Shown here in pieces: positions 7,349 through 42,974 of a DNA stretch of 52,889 nt. The notes under the pieces were generated by a model. That model made no database searches and had not been told where the DNA came from. It worked only from the letters and a program-made list of their open reading frames with translations. Positions within the stretch are counted from its first letter, which is position 1. Each line of letters opens with the position of its first letter. Both the position numbers and the translations under genes were made by a program. The DNA comes from a virus. The stretch lies in IMG/VR virus record IMGVR_UViG_3300006754_000026, positions 1 to 52,889 of that record. One strand, 5' to 3'.

Positions 7349-10300
7349 TTACTGCTGAACGAATGCATAACCTTCCTTTTTATCAATGGTGACTTGCATG
7401 TCTACACAGTCTTTTAAAGAATCCACATGAGAAATCAATAAAACTGTTTTAAAATATGATTTGATTAAATCTAAGATATCAATAAAGCCTTGCATATTTT
7501 CTTCGTCCAAAGCAGTCCCCGGCTCATCCAGAACGAAAATATCGGATTTTGGTAAACTCGAAACTGATAGGAGTGCCAATCGGATAGCGACCGCAGCGAT
7601 GGTTTTTTCAGCGCCGGAACCCATTTCCAGCGGGCGCGGATTATACTCTGCATGCTTAATAAAGATATTCAATCTTTTTCCATCATCCTCAAAGAAGACT
7701 TCGAAATCGACAATATTAGCCAAGATTTTAGCTATTTCTTCATTAATAACCGGAAGTCTTTTTTTGATAATGTCGTAGGCTATCCCATTTGGATGCAGAC
7801 ATCGCAAGTAAAGATCATAAGCCGCATATTCATCGCGCAAATCCATAAACTGTTGCTGTTGTTCTTTTATATTTTCTATTTTTTGTTCATAAGAGCCGAT
7901 TGTTTTATAGAGAGTCAACACTTCCTCTTGACACCCCTCATATAAACGTTGTAATTTGGTCGCCTCCCATTTAAGAGATTTTTTTGTTTTGATCAAACTT
8001 TCTAAGTTTTCAATAGCGTCTTTATTAAGTTCATATTCGGATACCTTCTCTTCAAGCAACATTATTTGGCTCATCAAATCTTTGATAATGGAAGAATTCT
8101 TTTCTACCCTCAAATCAGCATTGGTTATATCATTAGAAAGTATATTTTTCTTCTCCACTACTTGATTATATTTAGCGATATGTTCCTCGACTCTTTCTGG
8201 ATTAATCACTGCTACTTGATCAGACAAATCTTCAATAGAGTCTTCAAAAATTTCAATTTTTTGTTTATTGCTTGGAATGGTGGCTTTCGAAACATATGCA
8301 TCTTTAATAAATTTACACGTAGGAAACTCGGTCCCACATGGGATTCCATTTAACAGTTGAACACGATTTCTATTGCGATCCAATTCCTCTTCTTCTTTAT
8401 GTAGTCCAGCCTCTAATACTTCTAATTCAGCCACCATTTCATCAATTTCGTATTGTTCTTCATATAAACTTTTAATGTCAAAATTTTCAATAAAATCAGT
8501 AATTTTTTGATATTGTAGTTTCTTTTCGTCGCGATCTAAAAGCAACGTTTGATTCGCATCCGATAAAGAAACTATTTGGTTCCTTTTGTCTCGCAAATCC
8601 CCCCTCACGGTGACCACATCAATGATTTCGGCTGGGATAGATTCAATTTGGGCAGTAATATCCTCTCGTTGTTGGTTTTTTTCTTTAATGGAGAGGTCAT
8701 ATTTATTGCAAGCGTTTTGTTGTTTGGTAAGTTTTGCATTATAATCCTCCAGATCGAGTTCGGCAGCGATTATTTCTTCATCATAGGCGCGCCCCTCCAA
8801 TTTATTGAGGGCGCCCCTTGTGTCAGCTACAGACTCCTTTGCTAATTTAAATTTCTTGTCAAAAAACTCCAAATCAAGGAATTTGGCTAAAATTTCTTTT
8901 CGGCGCGTGGAACCCTCACTAATAAATGCTAAGGCTCCCAACTGAGAAGACATTGAAGAAAAAAGAAAGTCATCCAATGTTCCGAAAGTTTTTCGAATGT
9001 TTTTATCAGTCTCATTTCGCGTGAGGCCGTTCAATGGTTGGATATGATCTACGGATGCGTTATACATCTTAAAATCCACATTCGTGCGTGCTTCTTCAGT
9101 CACGATGCCTTTGAGTTTACGCGTGTATTTTTCCGATTCTCTCTCGACAAAATAATCGTTTTCCCCAATAGAGATTTTTATTCGACCTCGTCCGGTGCCC
9201 CTGTTCTGATTAATAATATTTAAGTTCTTCCTATCATTTTTAGAAGTCGAGTTAAAAATGGTATATAAAATTGAATCAATTATGCTAGATTTGCCCGAAA
9301 AGTTCTTTCCGAAGATACCAACGATTCCATTCAAATTATCAAAATTAATAGAGTTTCCCTCTCCATAGTTAAAAAGATTATCCCATTCAATTTCTCGCAA
9401 TTTCCAATTAATATTACGAGAGACCTCTTCATTCTCCTCGGCTAGTTGATTATATTTCAAGTTTAACTGTTGAACTTTCTTTAATAAATTTTCCGATGGC
9501 TCATAATCTTTCAAATATTCGTTTATCAAATCTTCTTGAACAGTAATATCGCGGAGATCCTCTGTCTGTAATCCTGATGCTAGTTCATTCACAGTCCCAT
9601 GGTCGCCTGCTGCACGATTTAGGAAAGTAACACTCTGCGGTTGAAATTGACTTTTCGCAATTTCAATAGCTTTTCGCATTACATTGAGTGGAAGGTTATT
9701 ATGAGATACAAGACGCAAACGAGCGTTAGGGGGAAGATGTGTGTTGGGGGGCAGTTTCCCCTTAGAGGTTAAATCAATAGTAATAAACGGGCGGGGATTA
9801 TCGATCTGAATATGTCGGCAAGTAAAGTCTTGTTTACTATCGATTTCCCAAATTAAGAAGCCTTTATCATTGGTTTCTCCAAAGTTTTGTTGAATGGTCG
9901 AGCCAGGATAACGAATATATCCTTTTTCATCTAAACATTGATTGGTCTTGTGAATGTCCCCCAAAAATCCATAATCTAAACCTTCAAAAATTTCCACAGG
10001 ATGGTCGCCATGTTGCATGATCCAACCGGTATCGGTTTTAACACCCGAGATAGAGCCATGATATAAAGCAATATTCACTTTGCTCAAATCACTTGGCGTG
10101 ACCCAATTGTCTTCATCGAAAACTGACAATATATTTAACACAAACTTCCCGTCTAGCTGGACTTCTCCAGAATTCTTCAACAAATGAAGATTACGGTGAT
10201 TCAAGGCTTCCACAATGGGAGTTAAAGCATCCTGACGACTGGAATTTTTTAAATTCCCGTCATGATTACCCAGAATTATATATGTGGGTGCAATATCCGC

Positions 10301-10501
10301 CAAACTTCGGAAGAAGTTTGTACACATCTCCACGAATTCGGGACTGATTTGCGTTTTTGTATGAGCTATATCACCGCAATGGATGATATAATCTACCTTT
10401 TCGTCTTTCAATGTTTGATACAATTTGTCAAACACTATTTTATATTCGTAATGATATTTTAAATTACGAATGTGCGTATCTGCAATATGTGCAAATTTCA
10501 C
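7349..10501 (-). CDS. Fused SbcD-SbcC (gp47-gp46-type) recombination nuclease/ATPase
   Basis: A single 1050-aa protein carries both halves of the Mre11-Rad50 type machine, which resects and repairs DNA ends and feeds recombination-dependent replication. The N-terminal metallophosphoesterase has motif I HIADTHIRN (residues 5-13), HCGDIAH (about 41-47) and LGNHDGN (about 77-83). After about residue 370 the SMC-type ATPase begins: Walker A GIFGKNFSGKSS (about 395-406), long coiled coils, a CGTEFPTC cysteine pair near residue 720 that may act as a zinc hook, ABC signature EMGSGAEKTI (near 955) and Walker B IFVLDEPGTALD (near 990). In T4 these are two genes (47 and 46). The continuous open frame and intact motifs argue for a genuine fusion. 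It precedes the lysis genes. Confidence 0.92.
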   Translation of the reverse strand: MKFAHIADTHIRNLKYHYEYKIVFDKLYQTLKDEKVDYIIHCGDIAHTKTQISPEFVEMCTNFFRSLADIAPTYIILGNHDGNLKNSSRQDALTPIVEALNHRNLHLLKNSGEVQLDGKFVLNILSVFDEDNWVTPSDLSKVNIALYHGSISGVKTDTGWIMQHGDHPVEIFEGLDYGFLGDIHKTNQCLDEKGYIRYPGSTIQQNFGETNDKGFLIWEIDSKQDFTCRHIQIDNPRPFITIDLTSKGKLPPNTHLPPNARLRLVSHNNLPLNVMRKAIEIAKSQFQPQSVTFLNRAAGDHGTVNELASGLQTEDLRDITVQEDLINEYLKDYEPSENLLKKVQQLNLKYNQLAEENEEVSRNINWKLREIEWDNLFNYGEGNSINFDNLNGIVGIFGKNFSGKSSIIDSILYTIFNSTSKNDRKNLNIINQNRGTGRGRIKISIGENDYFVERESEKYTRKLKGIVTEEARTNVDFKMYNASVDHIQPLNGLTRNETDKNIRKTFGTLDDFLFSSMSSQLGALAFISEGSTRRKEILAKFLDLEFFDKKFKLAKESVADTRGALNKLEGRAYDEEIIAAELDLEDYNAKLTKQQNACNKYDLSIKEKNQQREDITAQIESIPAEIIDVVTVRGDLRDKRNQIVSLSDANQTLLLDRDEKKLQYQKITDFIENFDIKSLYEEQYEIDEMVAELEVLEAGLHKEEEELDRNRNRVQLLNGIPCGTEFPTCKFIKDAYVSKATIPSNKQKIEIFEDSIEDLSDQVAVINPERVEEHIAKYNQVVEKKNILSNDITNADLRVEKNSSIIKDLMSQIMLLEEKVSEYELNKDAIENLESLIKTKKSLKWEATKLQRLYEGCQEEVLTLYKTIGSYEQKIENIKEQQQQFMDLRDEYAAYDLYLRCLHPNGIAYDIIKKRLPVINEEIAKILANIVDFEVFFEDDGKRLNIFIKHAEYNPRPLEMGSGAEKTIAAVAIRLALLSVSSLPKSDIFVLDEPGTALDEENMQGFIDILDLIKSYFKTVLLISHVDSLKDCVDMQVTIDKKEGYAFVQQ

Positions 10502-11454: not shown

Positions 11455-11483
11455 AATATAACATACTTCTGCGCCCTTGTCAA
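11455..11483 (-). promoter_or_regulatory. Sigma-70-type promoter for primase, probably leaderless
   Basis: On the minus strand TTGACA (11478-11483) and TATATT (11455-11460) are separated by exactly 17 bp. The -35 box contains the TGA stop of the resolvase gene. Counting seven bases past the -10 box places +1 on the A of the primase ATG (11448). The region between lacks any Shine-Dalgarno sequence. A consensus match this close, in one of the few intergenic gaps, is unlikely to be chance in my judgement. Confidence 0.75.
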
Positions 11484-21836: not shown

Positions 21837-22913
21837 CTAGTCTTTTTTATTATATGTGACGTGAGGAATTTCATCAGGAGAGTCCGTGTTGCATACTTCA
21901 GTATCCGCGAACCCAGAGGGTCCATAGAGAGTTTTTCGTCGAGGCGGAATCGGAATGTCCGGGCAGTTAAGTTCCTCGTCCACATAAATCCCCAATGATT
22001 TCAAACGAGTGATCGATTGGCATATTTCCCCTTCATCTATTTCATGATCTACATATAAATTAAAGTAATATTCCACAAACGAGGGATCCGGTACATATAG
22101 ATAGGATAAGTCGGGCCTTGGTGTTAAAATATTATTACTAATAGGGGAAGGATCCGGTAAAAAAGATAGGGGAATTAATATTTCTTTTATTTCTTGTTTA
22201 ACGGGGTCAAATTCTTCTTCTATTTTGAAAACTTCCATATCAAAATTTTCTCGACTAAAAATACCATTCTCTTCTTCTAAGGTTAATAGAATGCTGGCCG
22301 GAGTAACTTCTATATAATTCCCCTCCGACGAAACCCCCAAATTCAATTCTTCTGCTTGCTCATATCTATCAAAAACACCCTCATTTATTTGAGCTTCGGA
22401 TGCGTTGGCAATATTCATTATTTTTGTTTTATAAACAATTTCCATTTCTATTTGAGGAATCTGGAGTTGTTGAAATGAATCAGATGTGACAGCTGAAGAG
22501 CCACTAATCTCTCCATCGTAGACTTGTAATTTGAGCCGGGGCGCTTTATTGAAATCTAAGTTAGCAGTCCCCAGCGGTGCCGTTAAAGAATAAAGTTTCT
22601 CTGGGACCGATTGCATTTTAATCCGATCTAGTTCGCTCATTTTGGGATCTTGGCGAGCATTATAATATTGAGCAAAATCAGTTTCCCGACTAGTAAAAGA
22701 GTGTTGAGTTTTCATGCGGGGTGTATTTTCCTGGATCCGGGGCTCAATGTCATTTTGTACTTCTCTAATATCTCCACATTCTCCATCATATAAAATATCA
22801 TTATCAAAAAATGCATAATATACGGGCTTCCATTTTCCAATAGATAATAAATATTTACCATATTGAGTTAATTCAATATCTAATACTTCTTCTTTGGGAT
22901 TAAAAAACGTCAT
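21837..22913 (-). CDS. Conserved virion protein (FNPKEEVLDIELTQYGK family)
   Basis: The protein has 358 aa with the distinctive opening MTFFNPKEEVLDIELTQYGK followed by PVYYAFFDNDILYDGE. I have seen this opening in structural regions of several large marine myoviruses, where it is unassigned. An acidic C-terminal half carries EEEFDPVKQEIKEILIPLSF and a DRYEQAEELNLG segment. The start forms ATGA with the stop of the 525-aa frame upstream. There is no catalytic motif. By location between large tail proteins I infer a baseplate or tail-tip component. Confidence 0.65.
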   Translation of the reverse strand: MTFFNPKEEVLDIELTQYGKYLLSIGKWKPVYYAFFDNDILYDGECGDIREVQNDIEPRIQENTPRMKTQHSFTSRETDFAQYYNARQDPKMSELDRIKMQSVPEKLYSLTAPLGTANLDFNKAPRLKLQVYDGEISGSSAVTSDSFQQLQIPQIEMEIVYKTKIMNIANASEAQINEGVFDRYEQAEELNLGVSSEGNYIEVTPASILLTLEEENGIFSRENFDMEVFKIEEEFDPVKQEIKEILIPLSFLPDPSPISNNILTPRPDLSYLYVPDPSFVEYYFNLYVDHEIDEGEICQSITRLKSLGIYVDEELNCPDIPIPPRRKTLYGPSGFADTEVCNTDSPDEIPHVTYNKKD

Positions 22914-24487
22914 GATTTATCTTTATCGTCCTTTGTAGTTAGGCCCCAGGCGCCTTTTTTATTCTTTTCTTCGCGCTTTTCTTTCCTTCTCTCTTTGCGT
23001 TGTTGGTTCTTCTCTTCACTGGTAAGACCAGCATCTTCGGCCTGAAGTTGGCCCACGGGATCCTGTAGGGCGCGGGTTGATTTAACCCCCACATTTATTA
23101 GATTAGACACACCATCTGGTGCCACTTGCTCGGTTCCACCCGGACCCGGTAGTTTTCGTTCGTTGTGTAATTCGGTACCAAACCCCACGGTTGCCTCTAT
23201 TTTTGCACATTCTACCAAAGAAAAATAGTCGTAAGGCCAGTTATAGCTCTTCTCATATTGTGTATTGCGTTTCTCATCAGTATTATATTTGACCACTTTA
23301 CTAAAATATTTATTATTTGCGCGTTGCTTTACTTTAAATACCATCCATTGAACTTCGTTTTTAAGAGATTCTTGATGGAGGCCGACAAAACTTCCCATTA
23401 ATTCGTGTGATAATAATTTGTGCGCGATTGATGCTTCTTGGTAGACAACCTTCTCCCCTATAGAGGGCAACACATTTTGCCATATCTTGGCCAAGTCACA
23501 TTGAGATAAGGTGTAGGAAAAATCAAAAATATACATAGCAAAAGGAGTAATATCTGTATAAGTAAGAAAGTCCATGCGAGGCGGAAATATAAACTTTTTC
23601 ATCTTATTTACCATATTTAGGATAGTAGGTTGCTGTACAAAACCCACGTTATCTGTTACGGTGTTCGCTCCGGCATTCGCTGCTCCTTGAGCCACCGCGT
23701 CTCCTACTTGTTCCTCCGTTAAAACATCATTTTCGGCAAGCTCTTCCAACCCATCGGCTACGGCTTGCGCTGTGGCAGCTACAGCAGAAACGGCTTGAGA
23801 AACTGCATCCGTGCCGCTTAAATCACCTGACGCAATGGCAATATGTGCTCGCGGGATTTCAAAAAATTTTCTTTCCCCATCTCTTTCTAAAAATGGGACT
23901 GCAACAATGGCTTCGGATATAACGCGGCTGTGAGAAGTTTTACCCAATCTGACTTTCTTTTTAAATCCCATAACGTCAGCCAACGAATGAAGACCGGGAT
24001 CGGTGGTCTGTTGCCAGGGTGGGGGAGTCATGGTGGCATCGCGACCATAAAACCATCCTTGCGGATCCGTAATCCCCGGTCCTTCTTCTGATCCCCAGCG
24101 AGTGGCGCCCGGGAACCAATGTGGGGGGCCCAATGGCGTATGACCTCCAGCGAAGGTATCCCACACAAAATGAGTATTCAAACGCCCTTCCCTATAGCGC
24201 TCTGGGATACTGTCAACTTCTAAATAGATACCGCGTTGATCATCTATAACTCCAAATTGATGCCACATCCCGCGCGGTACAGATTCGGATCCGTGTGTTG
24301 GGATCAACAAGGTATTGGGAACCAAAGAACTCGTTGTCGTGGATCCCTGGCTACTCTTAATATGATTAAAATTATAATGAGGAGTTTCAAATTTAGTTTG
24401 AATGGTCCACCTATCATCTTTTCTGCCAAATAGATTAACCGAAGCATTTATTTGCATAGCATAAGAGTTCGCACATAATCCATCCAT
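22910..24487 (-). CDS. Downstream part of a TGA-interrupted virion protein
   Basis: From the first ATG (24485-24487) this frame encodes 525 aa, but the same frame is open for another 65 codons up to the TGA at 24683-24685, and those codons read as ordinary protein (NNLTLPYVYPPPSAFNNW, then a Gly/Ala-rich stretch, then GNWGADRYPMDGLC). That ATG has no purine-rich Shine-Dalgarno sequence. The conserved-looking core includes CDLAKIWQNVLPSIGEK and a YNWPYDYFSLVECAKIEATV motif that I recall from unassigned tail-region proteins. The C-terminal tail is extremely charged (QQRKERRKEKREEKNKKG). I infer this is the C-terminal part of one protein with the frame at 24683-26878. Confidence 0.65.
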   Translation of the reverse strand: MDGLCANSYAMQINASVNLFGRKDDRWTIQTKFETPHYNFNHIKSSQGSTTTSSLVPNTLLIPTHGSESVPRGMWHQFGVIDDQRGIYLEVDSIPERYREGRLNTHFVWDTFAGGHTPLGPPHWFPGATRWGSEEGPGITDPQGWFYGRDATMTPPPWQQTTDPGLHSLADVMGFKKKVRLGKTSHSRVISEAIVAVPFLERDGERKFFEIPRAHIAIASGDLSGTDAVSQAVSAVAATAQAVADGLEELAENDVLTEEQVGDAVAQGAANAGANTVTDNVGFVQQPTILNMVNKMKKFIFPPRMDFLTYTDITPFAMYIFDFSYTLSQCDLAKIWQNVLPSIGEKVVYQEASIAHKLLSHELMGSFVGLHQESLKNEVQWMVFKVKQRANNKYFSKVVKYNTDEKRNTQYEKSYNWPYDYFSLVECAKIEATVGFGTELHNERKLPGPGGTEQVAPDGVSNLINVGVKSTRALQDPVGQLQAEDAGLTSEEKNQQRKERRKEKREEKNKKGAWGLTTKDDKDKS

Positions 24488-24682
24488 GGGGTAACGATCG
24501 GCCCCCCAGTTGCCCTCGATGCTGACGGCTCCGGCTGCTCCCGAAGGAGATCCCCAAATAGCTATCTGCCGCGCGCCGCCTTGAGAGCCTCTGCCGAAGA
24601 GATACCAGTTGTTGAAAGCTGACGGCGGCGGGTATACATAGGGCAGAGTCAGATTGTTAACAGTTTCTCCGTTGGGGGCGCA

Positions 24683-24685
24683 TCA
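24683..24685 (-). other. In-frame TGA joining two halves of one open reading frame
   Basis: The context is TTA AAT TGA TGC GCC. The frames on both sides are in register (195 bp, 65 sense codons, between TGA and the next ATG). TGA is a normal stop elsewhere in this window, for example at 6285, 7113, 22910 and 49233, so global recoding is excluded. A Trp (TGG) to TGA change would restore a continuous ...FFLN-W-CAPNG... protein. Confidence 0.85.
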
Positions 24686-26878
24686 ATTTAAAAAAAAGAG
24701 AGTTTGGTCACCGCACAATAAAGGATCAATCCTCTGTAATATTACCATTGAGTTGTCTTCAATTTCAGCAATTGTGGGGCGGCCGGTACGTTTGGGGCGA
24801 AAAATAATATCGGCCCACCCTTCACCGTCTTTATAGGCAGGCGTAAATGCACTATAAAGACCTTGAGTACTATCTGAAAGTTTACGCCCATAATTATGCG
24901 TTCGGAGGGCGCCCCCTTTTGTTGGCCAGTGCTCACCCCCCTCAAATCCCCCTGCGCCTGCAAGAGGAGGGCCAAAGGCCGAAGGTCGGGAATATAAAGT
25001 AAAGGTTTCTCGCAAAGTAGATGCTCGGTGGATCGGGTCTTGAGGCATATCCCAATCAATAAATTTTTCTGCTGGATTTTCCGGTGTGCCCCACCATCGT
25101 ATATGATTCATGCTTCTATAAAGTTTAACGCGCATTGCATAGTAATTCCCCGATGTGACCGTTTGAAAATTTTCTTCTTTCTCGGACTGCAGGGAACTAA
25201 ACTCACCATCTTGTAAAAAGAATTCCGGAATAGCGGCTAAATAATTATTAATTGCTCTTTCATATAAATCATTTTCACGAGTTCCATCCCACGTATTACT
25301 CAATGAAATCCAGTGACTCGCACTGGTGGGATAGTTTTTCCATCCTTGGGGATTGCCGACGATTCCGCCGGGGCCCGGGATGCCCGAAGGCATGCCAGCT
25401 AACGAACGATTATAGAATCCATAATTATATCCCGCATCGGGATTCGGCTCCATATCAAAAATTTCTTTATTTGCCAAATAATTTTGGGGTTCTAATAAAG
25501 CTTCAAATGGTATTCTATAATCAAATCCTGCCATTCCGGTACCAGAAGACGTTCCCAAAGCGAACACTTGAGTCCCAGTTACATCCGGGGCGGCGCCGGA
25601 GACTGCAGTTGTATAGTTTACGATTCCGAAGGAAGATGTATAAATCGGGTAATCTACTGCCATACCAGCTTTGATAGTATTATATAAGAGGCCCGGGCCA
25701 AACAAAGTACTAAAAAAGGGACGATTTTTAAAAGCTACAGCTTCATTATAAACTGGTGAGGAGACACTCAACAATGAGTCGATCCAAAATCCATACGTGA
25801 AAGTTACAGGATCCGCATCCAATGTTTGTATAAGGTTGGGCGCAATGGCTCGTTTGGCCAAATGAGCAATCTGGAGGCTTCTTTCTGAAGGATAAAACCC
25901 ATCATAGGGGATCATTTTCATTAAAACTTTGCAAGTTAATTTAATAGTAGTGGGGTCCACAAAATCCTTATGATCTGATTGAACACGTTCGAAATGATTC
26001 ATAAAATCAGAATTAGAATATATTTTATAAAAATTGTTTTGTGAACTATTTTGGATATTTTTGGCCTCAATTTCAATGGCTTCATTGTTGGTACCAGGTA
26101 TCCACATTTTATCATTTCCGGTGACGCCCGGAATAGTGAACTCGGACGGATTGGGAACTAAAAAGTCTCCCCTATTTTCTATTAAATAATGTTCTAACCA
26201 CTCACTCAACCGGAATTCGGGAATAATAGAAAAATCTTTATTGCTGGGGCGGATATCTTCACTATAACCTTCATAGTCGTTATAAGAAGGATCAATGGTT
26301 TCTCTCAATCTTGTGACGAGGCCCTGTTGGGAGCTTGATACCACGAGTGGATACGATCCTAGACAATCAGCTAGTTTGTTCGATTCCCATAAAGCGGTTC
26401 CCCCATAAAGTTGGGGCGCGCCCATGGGGTGAGATTGGGTAAGGGGAGAAGCCTCATTATATCCATCAATATTCTTCATTTGAATGCTTTGAGTTTGATG
26501 AATATTCATCCCCGATGAGGGTGAGAAGGAAAATAAAGACGAAAGAGTGTGGCGCCGATTGTAGATGGGCCCTGATCCCGGAGAATCACGGTCGCTGACG
26601 AGGAGCGTTCCGTTCGCAAAAAATGTACCAGTAAAACTGCAGGTTATATTCGTATATATATCCCCCAGATTGGAATGAACAGTAGTATAATAATTCTGTA
26701 ACTCGCCTGGGTCTGGGGGGTTTAACACAACAACTGAAGATCCTCCTATTTCTTGAGAGGCGGGGCAATAACAAGCCGGGGCGACCTGCATATTTAAAAA
26801 ACGCATAGAGGCATCTAGAGACCACGCACTTTGGGAGCAGATGAGTTTATCTTGTGAATTATATACATTAGCAGCCAT
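24683..26878 (-). CDS. Upstream part of a TGA-interrupted virion protein
   Basis: The start at 26878 (MAANVYNSQDKL) is chosen because GGGGAGGGCTATA lies just upstream; it overlaps the stop of the 2132-aa gene by one base. The 731-aa product is rich in Ser, Tyr, Asn and Pro and looks like a large beta-structured structural protein. It has an early PACYCPASQEIGG segment, a middle with KVLMKMIPYDGFYPSERSLQ, an AGFDYRIPFEALLEPQNYLA segment and an end near SMVILQRIDPLLCGDQTLFF. It stops at a TGA after which the same frame continues for 65 codons and then through the 525-aa frame. Whether the phage makes a 731-aa product, a full-length readthrough product, or both cannot be told here. Confidence 0.7.
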   Translation of the reverse strand: MAANVYNSQDKLICSQSAWSLDASMRFLNMQVAPACYCPASQEIGGSSVVVLNPPDPGELQNYYTTVHSNLGDIYTNITCSFTGTFFANGTLLVSDRDSPGSGPIYNRRHTLSSLFSFSPSSGMNIHQTQSIQMKNIDGYNEASPLTQSHPMGAPQLYGGTALWESNKLADCLGSYPLVVSSSQQGLVTRLRETIDPSYNDYEGYSEDIRPSNKDFSIIPEFRLSEWLEHYLIENRGDFLVPNPSEFTIPGVTGNDKMWIPGTNNEAIEIEAKNIQNSSQNNFYKIYSNSDFMNHFERVQSDHKDFVDPTTIKLTCKVLMKMIPYDGFYPSERSLQIAHLAKRAIAPNLIQTLDADPVTFTYGFWIDSLLSVSSPVYNEAVAFKNRPFFSTLFGPGLLYNTIKAGMAVDYPIYTSSFGIVNYTTAVSGAAPDVTGTQVFALGTSSGTGMAGFDYRIPFEALLEPQNYLANKEIFDMEPNPDAGYNYGFYNRSLAGMPSGIPGPGGIVGNPQGWKNYPTSASHWISLSNTWDGTRENDLYERAINNYLAAIPEFFLQDGEFSSLQSEKEENFQTVTSGNYYAMRVKLYRSMNHIRWWGTPENPAEKFIDWDMPQDPIHRASTLRETFTLYSRPSAFGPPLAGAGGFEGGEHWPTKGGALRTHNYGRKLSDSTQGLYSAFTPAYKDGEGWADIIFRPKRTGRPTIAEIEDNSMVILQRIDPLLCGDQTLFFLN

Positions 26879-37823: not shown

Positions 37824-40800
37824 TTAATCCTTTGGTTTAAGGGGGTCCCCCTCTTCTTGGCGTCGGACTACCTCACATGCATCTTTGGGTTTGGGTCTTT
37901 GTAATCTCTTTTTCCACCAAGGAATTTTCCAGTCAAGATTGGCCCTTACCCGGGCATCTTTTCGGACTTTTTCTTTCTTGGAATCTGTTTCGGGATCTTC
38001 ATAATCCATATCTCTTACATGATAATTAGCTCTAAACATACCTCTCAACATTTTTTTTGTCCTCATAAAAGTTTCCCTATCCCAGCCCCGGAACGCACTC
38101 AAACCTCCTCCTCCGGACTTTCCTCCATTTTTTTCATATTCACCCCACTCTTCTCCCAAAGAAGGTATAAATCCTTCTATGGTATAAATAGTTGCTAGTG
38201 AAAGTAAACTAGGCAAAGCAAAACAATAATTGAATAAAGTTTGATATTTGGGATCTTTTATTAGCTGGTTTATTAAACATGTGGTGATGTGTTCATCATA
38301 GTTTTGCATTAAATCCGCATTCACCACTTGATCTCCCTTGATTTCAACTTCGGTCGAAACTAGCGGAAAGATAATTTTTCGGGGGTCCGAATCATCAATG
38401 GTGGTTATCGGGGCGCCCAACTTTAAGGATTTTAAAGCCAATGCATCATTGGCTTTAATAGAATCTATAAAATCGGGGGATATGTGGTATTGTTTTTCCT
38501 CCGGAAGAATGAACGAAATGCGCAAGCCAAAGCTCCAACTTTTCCAGATGTCAGTAATTTTATAAGAGGTAGCGGGGGGAGTGTTCGCCGCAAGAAATTC
38601 CTCCCAATCTTGCAAATTTACTACCGGGGAGACCGCGTTACTTCTATTAGCGGGAGAATTTAATATCAGGTCGGCTGGAGGATTATAATCTTCGGGCTCA
38701 TCATCCTGCGAATATCGGTTAATTTTAATATATTTTTCCAATGCAAATGGGAAATATCCTGAACCTTTTAAAAATTTATCGGTCGTTATTTCGGTCTGGA
38801 GGTTGTTGCTGTCGATAAACCCCGAAAATTTCTCAGGCGCATAAATATCTTCTAAAATCCCCGATGTTTCTATTTCGCGAGGGACATGAAGCGGGCCAGC
38901 GCTTGTCAAAGCTCCCATCATCCAATCTGGCGACCCGAATACCAAACTAGACAGATCATGAATGGAGGGATTTAACGCTGTTTTAAAAGCGGCGGAAACC
39001 TCTTTCAGTTCGTCCGATATATATCTTCTTAATATTATTTTGGCATAATCTTTAGTCGCTGCCATATATTCATCAAATTTTTTCCGCTTTTTTTTCTTTT
39101 TAAAGATGGGATGTGTCGGCTCGCGATAAGTTGATAAACTCTTTCTAAGTTCAGTCAATGCTTCCGTTTCCTCGGCGGTGGGAACAAGAAGTTCTAAATC
39201 TCTTTTACGTTCAAAATTCTGAACTACTTGCTCTAGAAAAATATAATAAAATGTCCATTTTTTAATTTCTGGGCGAAATAATACATTACCCCCCAATGTA
39301 TAGATATCTTGTAACATGGTTTCGGATATATAAGCAAATAAAACTTCATCAAAAACACCCGTTTTAGCCTCAAAAAGAGAAAATACTGGCATGCCTTTTA
39401 TAAAGTTTTCTACAATATAAAGCCTACACAATGCTAGAATTGTCCCCTCAATTGCAGAGGCGGCTTCTTTTTCTAAAATTCTCGAATAAGGAGGCTCGAT
39501 GGCACAATCTGGATTATATTTTAAGCGGGGATCATCGACAATTTTACCATCAAACTCCTTGACTTTATCACTAATCTGTTCAAAATCTATAATGGGGGTT
39601 CTCTCGCACGCATCTACTTTTGGGGCCATGGCTTCATAAATCCCAAGCCACCCACCGTATTCGGGCTCCTCAATCCAATAAGGAGGATTGTCTTCATCAC
39701 CTCCGTAAGTTTCATAATCCGTTAAAGGATGAATAATAGGTGCCAAAGTGGGGTCAAATCCATAATCAAAGGCGCGGCTATTTTTAGTTATCTTGACTAA
39801 AAACTTTTTGATAATGGCCGAATTAATATAATCAAATAAGTAATCTCGGCAATAATGGCTAATAGAATCCACATCTGAGGTATATGGTTTCCAAATATCT
39901 GCTACTATTTTTCCAAAAATGGTAGCTTGTGGAGAATGTTCTAATTTGGGGAGCGAAGGATCGGGATCACTACTCGGATCTACTGCGACCGTTCCAGCAG
40001 ATCCTGATACTCCTTTATCGGAGGTGGCAGATGAACCAAAAGGGGGAACTACTCCGGCGCCAGGGGTAGTGGGAAGAGCATATTCTGAGGATAAGAAACT
40101 TTCAAAAGGAGTGGGCATAGAATATATGTCATCTATATAATCTTGAGAAGCCGTTGGGATGGATCTTATTCCCTCAAAACTTAAACTGCCGTCTCGTCCA
40201 AATGAATTCTTCCTTTGAAACCGGAAGGCGTTCCCCCACTCGGGTTGACCCATTTGATTTAAGGTAAAATAATCATAATTTAATGTAAATGAATAGCTGC
40301 CCGGATTGTCATAGAACGCGTCTTTCCACGCAGAGTATTCCATTACAACATCAGGTTCTTTTACAACTAAAGAATTATCGCCATAGACCACACCTGGCGC
40401 AATGAAATATTTCAATGTAGTTTTGAAAGGGGGCGCCAAAGATTCCAGAGTATTTTTTAAATGGATGGCAACCGTTTCAGGTAATACGTGACCTACTTTA
40501 TTTTGAATAGTTAAAAAATCGTGGTTTCGACCAGTATCTGCATCCGCGAATAAATCAAATATTCCTAACTCTCCAGAATCAGAGGCGCCAAAGAATTTAA
40601 GAAAAAATTCCTTGTGCCACTTATACCCAGTTCCTTTGGTATCGGCCAAAATCATATCCAAAAGTCCCTTGCGGCCGAGCCGCCCCCCTCCAATTAAATC
40701 TTTCAAGAAAACCGCGTTAACCAAAGTGAATGTATCACCTATAGCGTTTTTAGTGACTTTTTGAGTTTCCGGCCCTACATTAGGTAATAATCCTTGTTCG

Positions 40801-42974
40801 GGACATTCCGGGTCTGGGCTTACAAGGGGGATGGGTAATAGATTGTCTAAAGTGGTAGCAATATTCCCAAAATCTTCCAACATTTGCTGTTGTCTTTCGT
40901 CAGATGCCTTTTGTTGTTGCATTATTTGATCGGGATTAAATCCTTTGCCCGATAAGGCGGCAGCACGGAGATTGTGCCATTGGTTTTGTGCTTCGGGTTC
41001 ACATAAAGAAGGATTAAGGGGCCGTACAGGGCCCTCGTCTAAAATAGTATTTATAATATTGCTATCCAAAACAGCGCCCAGGTTAGAAAACATGTTCTTA
41101 ATTTGGGCTTGACTAGTAACAAGCGCTGCAACTTCTCCGCCCGGTAGCGATTGTATAATTTCTTCCACATATTTCAAGGCTTCCGGGGATGGATCTCCGT
41201 CTAATAATCCTTTTGTTTCTTGATTTGTCAAAGTATTTCCCACAGCATCGATGAAATCCCCTACGGCCTCATCAGAAGGAGGAGGGGGATACGACCCCAC
41301 ATTGGCGCCAAAGTCTCCCAGCGCAGATAAAATACTATTAACACCTTTGGCCAATTCTTCATCGTTGGCCGATGGGCCGCAGACAGCAGTTCTTAACGCA
41401 TCTTTAAATTGTGAGGGGCCGCCAATGATTTGGCCTATATCACCGATAGTTTCACAGCCCGCATTCATACTTACAGTTAAGATATTTTTAAAAACTGATT
41501 GGAGAAGATTGAATAGCATTTGTTGGGCTGCATCTTCTGCCGCCTGGATGATCATTCCCCCAATATTGTTCATTGGACCAATGGGGAACCCATCGAACCT
41601 CGGGAGTGTTATTTCGGCATGTAGTTTTGATTTGGCTCGACTACAGTTATTGCCTGTCTCTCTTCCATCGGGGTCATCTTTCCTGCTAAGATCAAGAGTT
41701 TTGAAAAAATCACTTACAGGAGGAGACCACATCGGAGGTCGGGGACAATCTTTAGTTCCAAGACCGAGCATTGCGGCGCCTGCTTCTTTTACGATGGGTC
41801 CCATAAGAAGTTCTCCGCCGGGGATATCTTTTAGCGCACTCATGAAAGCGTCCACTGAAATAAAATTATTTTGAACTAAATTATTAATACCCTTTTTAAT
41901 GTGATCGTAACTTTGGTCCCAAATTTTATCCAAAGCTATACCAACTGATCCTGGTTGTGAGGTACTACTGTCTGGTTTTTTGCCCGAAGGGCCAATAACC
42001 GTCTTATCTCCCCCAACCTCAACTTCAATACGCTGGTCAGCCTCTTCGGCGGCCTGCTCTGCTGTAGTCAGAACCTTTGGTTCCGGTCCTCGGATATCCA
42101 TTTCTCCGGTCGGTGGAGGAGTACCTGTCTCCCCTTCCTCGGCTGTGTCAGCCTCCGGGGGCTCGGCTTCATGCTCATCTAGAGTTTCTTCTAAAAATTG
42201 GACATTGCCGTCGGCGTCGAGGGTTGCATAAGGCACGTACTCTATACTTCCATTGCCCCCTCGGGCATGCATCCATTTCGAATCGGATGCCCAGGGCCGG
42301 TCGGCTTGGGCAGTTGTTATGTGAACATGGCCACCCCCCTCTTGGTCATACCATATCATCTGATCAAATGCTAAATTCTTTTCTACTACCCATTGAGTAA
42401 ACCTTTCAGCCGGGGTGCCGAAGCCATCCACATTGGGTACAGTAATATCCGCTGCTAGACCATGTAAATGTTGACTACTATCAGAGCCTCCGACGGCTTC
42501 ATTAACCTCATCGGATCGATATGCAGAGCTAACTTGAATCTTGCCTTGTCCGTCGGCGTCCAAAGCTTCCTGGATGGGCTCCAACACTTTATCGATAAGA
42601 CTTTGAAGATTATCCAACTCTAAAGCTGAAGGGATATTAGTCTTGTTCGCAGTGCTGGAATGTCCTGTAAGCGTTTGGTAACTAAATTGATCCCGGTAGG
42701 CGGGATTAGCGGTAGTGAGGGCCGTTGATAAAAGTTCTTCTGGTTTCTGACAAATAGCATCGCCCGGATAGGCACGGCAATAAACTTTGAGATCCTTCTT
42801 TTTATTAAAAGATAACGGGCCTGGATGGGGGTAGTCTTCGGAAAAGACAATAGTGGTACCGCCCAGTTGAGTCCACAGTGCGTCCAGGTCTTGGTTGCTC
42901 GCGCGATAATACACGCTTTGCAGATATTGGAAATTTTTAAATAGTTTATCTAGGCGTTCGGTTTCGTCAGCCAT
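37824..42974 (-). CDS. Giant virion protein with N-terminal M15 peptidase domain, 1716 aa
   Basis: After an N-terminal 115 residues comes an M15A-type D,D-carboxypeptidase-like domain (about 120-225): SSAYRSDEVNEAVGG, then SSQHLHGLAADI with the zinc ligands His169 and Asp176 in S-x-H-x-x-G-x-A-x-D, and GGGHVHIT with the third His near 216-218. It is followed by a Glu/Pro/Ser-rich linker (about 255-340). A very long structural part without recognisable domains follows, including helical segments around 460-760 and a Lys-rich FKKKKKRKKFDEYM. A zinc peptidase on the tail would cut peptide cross-links of peptidoglycan during entry. The stop is 6 bp before the gp25-like start, and the start overlaps the previous gene by one base. 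Confidence 0.75.
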   Translation of the reverse strand: MADETERLDKLFKNFQYLQSVYYRASNQDLDALWTQLGGTTIVFSEDYPHPGPLSFNKKKDLKVYCRAYPGDAICQKPEELLSTALTTANPAYRDQFSYQTLTGHSSTANKTNIPSALELDNLQSLIDKVLEPIQEALDADGQGKIQVSSAYRSDEVNEAVGGSDSSQHLHGLAADITVPNVDGFGTPAERFTQWVVEKNLAFDQMIWYDQEGGGHVHITTAQADRPWASDSKWMHARGGNGSIEYVPYATLDADGNVQFLEETLDEHEAEPPEADTAEEGETGTPPPTGEMDIRGPEPKVLTTAEQAAEEADQRIEVEVGGDKTVIGPSGKKPDSSTSQPGSVGIALDKIWDQSYDHIKKGINNLVQNNFISVDAFMSALKDIPGGELLMGPIVKEAGAAMLGLGTKDCPRPPMWSPPVSDFFKTLDLSRKDDPDGRETGNNCSRAKSKLHAEITLPRFDGFPIGPMNNIGGMIIQAAEDAAQQMLFNLLQSVFKNILTVSMNAGCETIGDIGQIIGGPSQFKDALRTAVCGPSANDEELAKGVNSILSALGDFGANVGSYPPPPSDEAVGDFIDAVGNTLTNQETKGLLDGDPSPEALKYVEEIIQSLPGGEVAALVTSQAQIKNMFSNLGAVLDSNIINTILDEGPVRPLNPSLCEPEAQNQWHNLRAAALSGKGFNPDQIMQQQKASDERQQQMLEDFGNIATTLDNLLPIPLVSPDPECPEQGLLPNVGPETQKVTKNAIGDTFTLVNAVFLKDLIGGGRLGRKGLLDMILADTKGTGYKWHKEFFLKFFGASDSGELGIFDLFADADTGRNHDFLTIQNKVGHVLPETVAIHLKNTLESLAPPFKTTLKYFIAPGVVYGDNSLVVKEPDVVMEYSAWKDAFYDNPGSYSFTLNYDYFTLNQMGQPEWGNAFRFQRKNSFGRDGSLSFEGIRSIPTASQDYIDDIYSMPTPFESFLSSEYALPTTPGAGVVPPFGSSATSDKGVSGSAGTVAVDPSSDPDPSLPKLEHSPQATIFGKIVADIWKPYTSDVDSISHYCRDYLFDYINSAIIKKFLVKITKNSRAFDYGFDPTLAPIIHPLTDYETYGGDEDNPPYWIEEPEYGGWLGIYEAMAPKVDACERTPIIDFEQISDKVKEFDGKIVDDPRLKYNPDCAIEPPYSRILEKEAASAIEGTILALCRLYIVENFIKGMPVFSLFEAKTGVFDEVLFAYISETMLQDIYTLGGNVLFRPEIKKWTFYYIFLEQVVQNFERKRDLELLVPTAEETEALTELRKSLSTYREPTHPIFKKKKKRKKFDEYMAATKDYAKIILRRYISDELKEVSAAFKTALNPSIHDLSSLVFGSPDWMMGALTSAGPLHVPREIETSGILEDIYAPEKFSGFIDSNNLQTEITTDKFLKGSGYFPFALEKYIKINRYSQDDEPEDYNPPADLILNSPANRSNAVSPVVNLQDWEEFLAANTPPATSYKITDIWKSWSFGLRISFILPEEKQYHISPDFIDSIKANDALALKSLKLGAPITTIDDSDPRKIIFPLVSTEVEIKGDQVVNADLMQNYDEHITTCLINQLIKDPKYQTLFNYCFALPSLLSLATIYTIEGFIPSLGEEWGEYEKNGGKSGGGGLSAFRGWDRETFMRTKKMLRGMFRANYHVRDMDYEDPETDSKKEKVRKDARVRANLDWKIPWWKKRLQRPKPKDACEVVRRQEEGDPLKPKD

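Follow-up and report, generated by a model that had tools for sequence, protein, structure and literature searches.

A lone in-frame TGA interrupts a long virion-protein reading frame in an uncultured phage. Sequence comparison indicates that the parts on either side of it (N and C) and the 65 codons between them are one gene, which would encode a virion protein of ~1,320 residues. It is very probable that the TGA is a lesion private to this record, lying in an ordinary virion-protein gene and playing no regulatory role. Found in one record only, and in a gene that is otherwise conserved, the stop points either to an error in the contig consensus, which has about an even chance of being the source, or to a nonsense mutation that arose recently in the virus sampled, which is possible but less favored. 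Both options had been raised in the original prediction and gain support here, the stop being private and the relatives carrying one uninterrupted gene.

The window, the whole stretch of DNA analyzed, is a complete IMG/VR virus record of 52,889 bases. Its genes include a T4-like portal and terminase, gp25-like and gp6-like baseplate genes and large virion-type genes, and the interrupted gene would belong to the T4-like baseplate/tail region. The phage is probably marine, given matches such as an "uncultured marine virus" protein. Elsewhere on the minus strand, an SbcD-like nuclease and an SbcC-like ATPase are fused in a 1050-aa ORF (7349–10501; PHROG 100 and 77), a fusion also found in the closest relative, G001, with 87% identity, and a 1716-aa ORF (37824–42974) has an endolysin-like domain (PHROG 894) toward its N-terminal end.

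The interrupted reading frame

The minus-strand register that starts at 26878 is open on both sides of the TGA as far as 22910 (Table 1), so that one virion frame is indeed split by this codon, as originally proposed. Its 3969 nt make up 1323 codons including both stops, one fewer than the 1324 first given. The TGA is followed by 65 open codons up to ATG 24487 and then by 525 codons to a second TGA. ATG 26893 is an alternative upstream start for the same frame. ATG 26878 is likely the true start, because it is preceded by GGGGAGGG and overlaps the stop of the upstream gene (A) as TAATG.

Table 1. Features of the interrupted gene and its upstream neighbor, in window coordinates.
Feature	Position	Strand	Description
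N part	24683–26878	-	N-terminus of virion/tail-region protein up to the TGA; 731 aa from ATG 26878, 736 aa from ATG 26893
In-frame TGA	24683–24685	-	T8 run before, base T after; missing from all relatives spanning the site
65-codon piece, TGA to next ATG	24488–24682	-	Homologous to single-gene sequence in relatives
C part	22910–24487	-	525 codons from ATG 24487, without Shine-Dalgarno sequence
Upstream gene (A), 2132 aa	26878–33276	-	In many relatives, part of one ORF with N+C

The 65-codon piece had been described as protein-like, and its codon log-odds bear this out, being +0.12 in frame, whereas the other two forward frames, both of which contain stops, score -0.23 and -0.17. A frame of 65 codons would be open by chance with p ~0.08 and one of 590 codons with p ~1e-10; it is homology to relatives that makes the coding status of the post-TGA frame certain. 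The high GC content of the piece (0.60) was considered as a special feature and rejected: equally GC-rich stretches occur elsewhere in the window, and the G001 counterpart also lies above that genome's average.

Two shifts of frame at the site were also considered and rejected. Whether the ribosome shifts by -1 on the slippery T-rich sequence (T TTT TTA AAT) or slippage occurs in the T8 run, either alternative frame closes within roughly a dozen codons.

Homologs across the site

G001 is collinear with the window, its core genes being 83–96% identical, and a single 1333-aa ORF covers the whole region there, including the 65 codons, with no stop (52% identity). No other lesion was found among the window genes aligning to G001. 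In a second relative (L209), 47% identical over the modeled region, the frame also runs uninterrupted across the site. Profile searches of all fetched loci find N and C together in a single ORF at 167 loci, corresponding to 131 distinct sequences, and a stop at the position of the TGA occurs in 0 of the 131.

The original prediction left room for homologs that are truly two genes; every relative spanning the site is instead in one frame, with the exception of L210. Here a one-base frameshift within the otherwise conserved motif FTPPYYDGE (L210:7803-7840) splits the same protein ~45 codons ahead of where the window has its TGA, and is itself a private lesion or error. An ORF for C alone is confined to L210 and the window, and in no relative does C form a gene of its own with a convincing start. 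The one other break of N+C is frameshift-like and lies in the N part of G040. Because the G040 and L210 breaks are each unique to one record, they fit private lesions arising at a low background rate.

Over aligned codons, identity between the window and G001 is 57.8% for N and 57.6% for C; the 65-codon piece, compared in the same frame, reaches 42.9% where it can be aligned. Third codon positions are the most changed in all three. Since identity and codon-position bias are equal before and after the TGA, the C part is, by this measure, not decayed.

Several searches returned nothing: no relatives were found with N736 in viral_contigs or the phage collection, with C525 in the phage collection or with the C part in genome_contigs, no near-identical record was found by an exact DNA scan, and neither N nor C has a match in PHROGs.

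Predicted structure and the variable loop

In an AlphaFold2 model built for the read-through protein (pTM 0.77), the TGA corresponds to residue 548 and falls at the edge of a stretch of low confidence (residues 537–609) that separates well-predicted folded blocks. In the relatives examined, alignments are gapped around the TGA, marking a hypervariable loop, and no residue aligns at its position even in the closest relatives; an ancestral Trp is thus not inferable. Given the alignment gaps and the low-confidence stretch, the lower identity of the 65-codon piece fits a variable loop. Predicted viral protein structures match the read-through model over nearly its whole length, as single chains, while the PDB holds nothing credible for the protein by sequence or fold.

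Architecture of the giant virion gene

In 15 of the 20 relatives examined, gene A and N+C are spanned by a single ORF of 2854–3996 aa; other relatives have N+C as a stand-alone gene of ~1300–1440 aa, as in the window. Splits inside A occur near residue 1150–1290 in three relatives (G029, G022 and G028; loci L115, L116 and L117), and in G029 the upstream gene is divided by an in-frame TAA directly followed by ATG in the same register (L115:6556-6561). The comparison thus shows that this phage group encodes a giant virion protein in either of two ways: in a single ORF reaching ~4,000 aa, or in two genes divided at the A|N junction or inside A. Two cultured phages, immuto and Mel-JY01, match only approximately the first 1,200 aa of A.

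Origin and consequence of the stop

The natural splits of the giant protein at other places (the A|N junction of the window and G001, and sites inside A in three relatives) lend some appeal to a true gene fission, in which C would be an independent gene, translated from ATG 24487 or by ribosomes reinitiating past the TGA. The TGATG at the site even forms a stop-start overlap, but its ATG is out of frame and opens an ORF that ends after ~8 codons. In genuine splits of the family the start lies at or near the stop, and the A|N junction has a Shine-Dalgarno sequence in both the window and G001. ATG 24487, by comparison, lies 65 codons downstream of the TGA, and these codons are still conserved in frame; it has no ribosome-binding site, as first observed, although most window genes do. 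No relative is split at the same place, and the nearby split in L210, the sole other C-only ORF, is due to its one-base frameshift in a conserved motif. A fission is accordingly very unlikely, and ATG 24487 is probably just an internal Met codon.

Translation through the TGA fares little better. Regulated UGA readthrough, yielding a short (731 aa) and a long (~1,320 aa) tail protein, was among the explanations first offered; it finds no support here and is very improbable. Beyond the TGA an intact, conserved frame runs to the next stop, and UGA is the leakiest stop codon (PMC5289835), but the stop is present in no relative and lies in a hypervariable loop. The next base is T, a low-readthrough context: readthrough of UGA-U is low, and higher with C or A at +4 (PMC5289835). 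It is a shade less probable still that the TGA is real and fixed in one lineage, with low-level UGA misreading setting the ratio of short to long baseplate/tail protein. An alternative code in phage or host, with TGA read as tryptophan, has next to no chance. One in-frame TGA within a conserved frame is what such a code would produce, but many would be expected, and the 14,099 codons of 20 other genes contain 186 TGG and 0 internal TGA. Six other genes end in TGA, in keeping with the earlier view of it as a normal stop; at the TGA codons ending at 11480, 13252, 6285 and 22910, the G001 protein stops there or within a few residues. The window also lacks a tRNA gene.

A lesion private to the record thus remains the preferred reading. 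Against it stands the rarity of such events: two other genes of the relatives show no internal stop in ~190,000 codons and a frame change at one locus, so that lesions in contigs of this kind, and nonsense lesions in particular, are rare but do exist. A rare lesion is nonetheless unsurprising, because the site was chosen for study as one oddity of a 53-kb window. In-frame stops that persist only briefly on an evolutionary scale are widespread across bacterial genomes, with the mobilome as an over-represented category (PMC7918605).

A local error gains some plausibility from the T8 run next to the stop. No single change of its length restores the frame, which upholds the earlier argument that one indel cannot explain the stop. 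Two nearby compensating indel errors around the run, or another assembly artefact, are an unlikely sub-case of the consensus error, and the probabilities of the two overlap. The homopolymer before the TGA is among the five longest in the window, and in a hypervariable loop a brief loss of frame would escape notice; on the other hand, two events are needed instead of one, and the register on both sides of the site agrees with the relatives.

If the TGA is real, the protein would be truncated at ~731 aa, with little or no C-terminal part made, and the virus would probably be defective or dependent on low-level UGA misreading. The main importance of the case lies in annotation hygiene: gene callers report two genes for one, with a false start at 24487 for the second.

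Relation to known systems

Readthrough of UGA in phage coat genes (Q-beta A1 type) shares with the window a stop followed by a long conserved frame. In contrast to that type, the window's stop is not conserved, and TGA-T is a low-readthrough context. Among cultured phages, Immutovirus immuto gp109 (1265 aa) and a 1336-aa protein of Microcystis phage Mel-JY01 occupy the same place after the gp6-like baseplate wedge gene. They match the profile of the upstream 2132-aa protein only and have no detectable N+C part. The closest likeness is to the large virion proteins (1,300–4,000 aa) of uncultured, probably marine myovirus-like phages (IMG/VR; BFVD, e.g. A0A0F7LAZ6), which are of the same family and fold over the whole length. 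The read-through protein joins them by full-length homology and by its gene neighborhood, and differs in the TGA, at the place of which their frame is uninterrupted.
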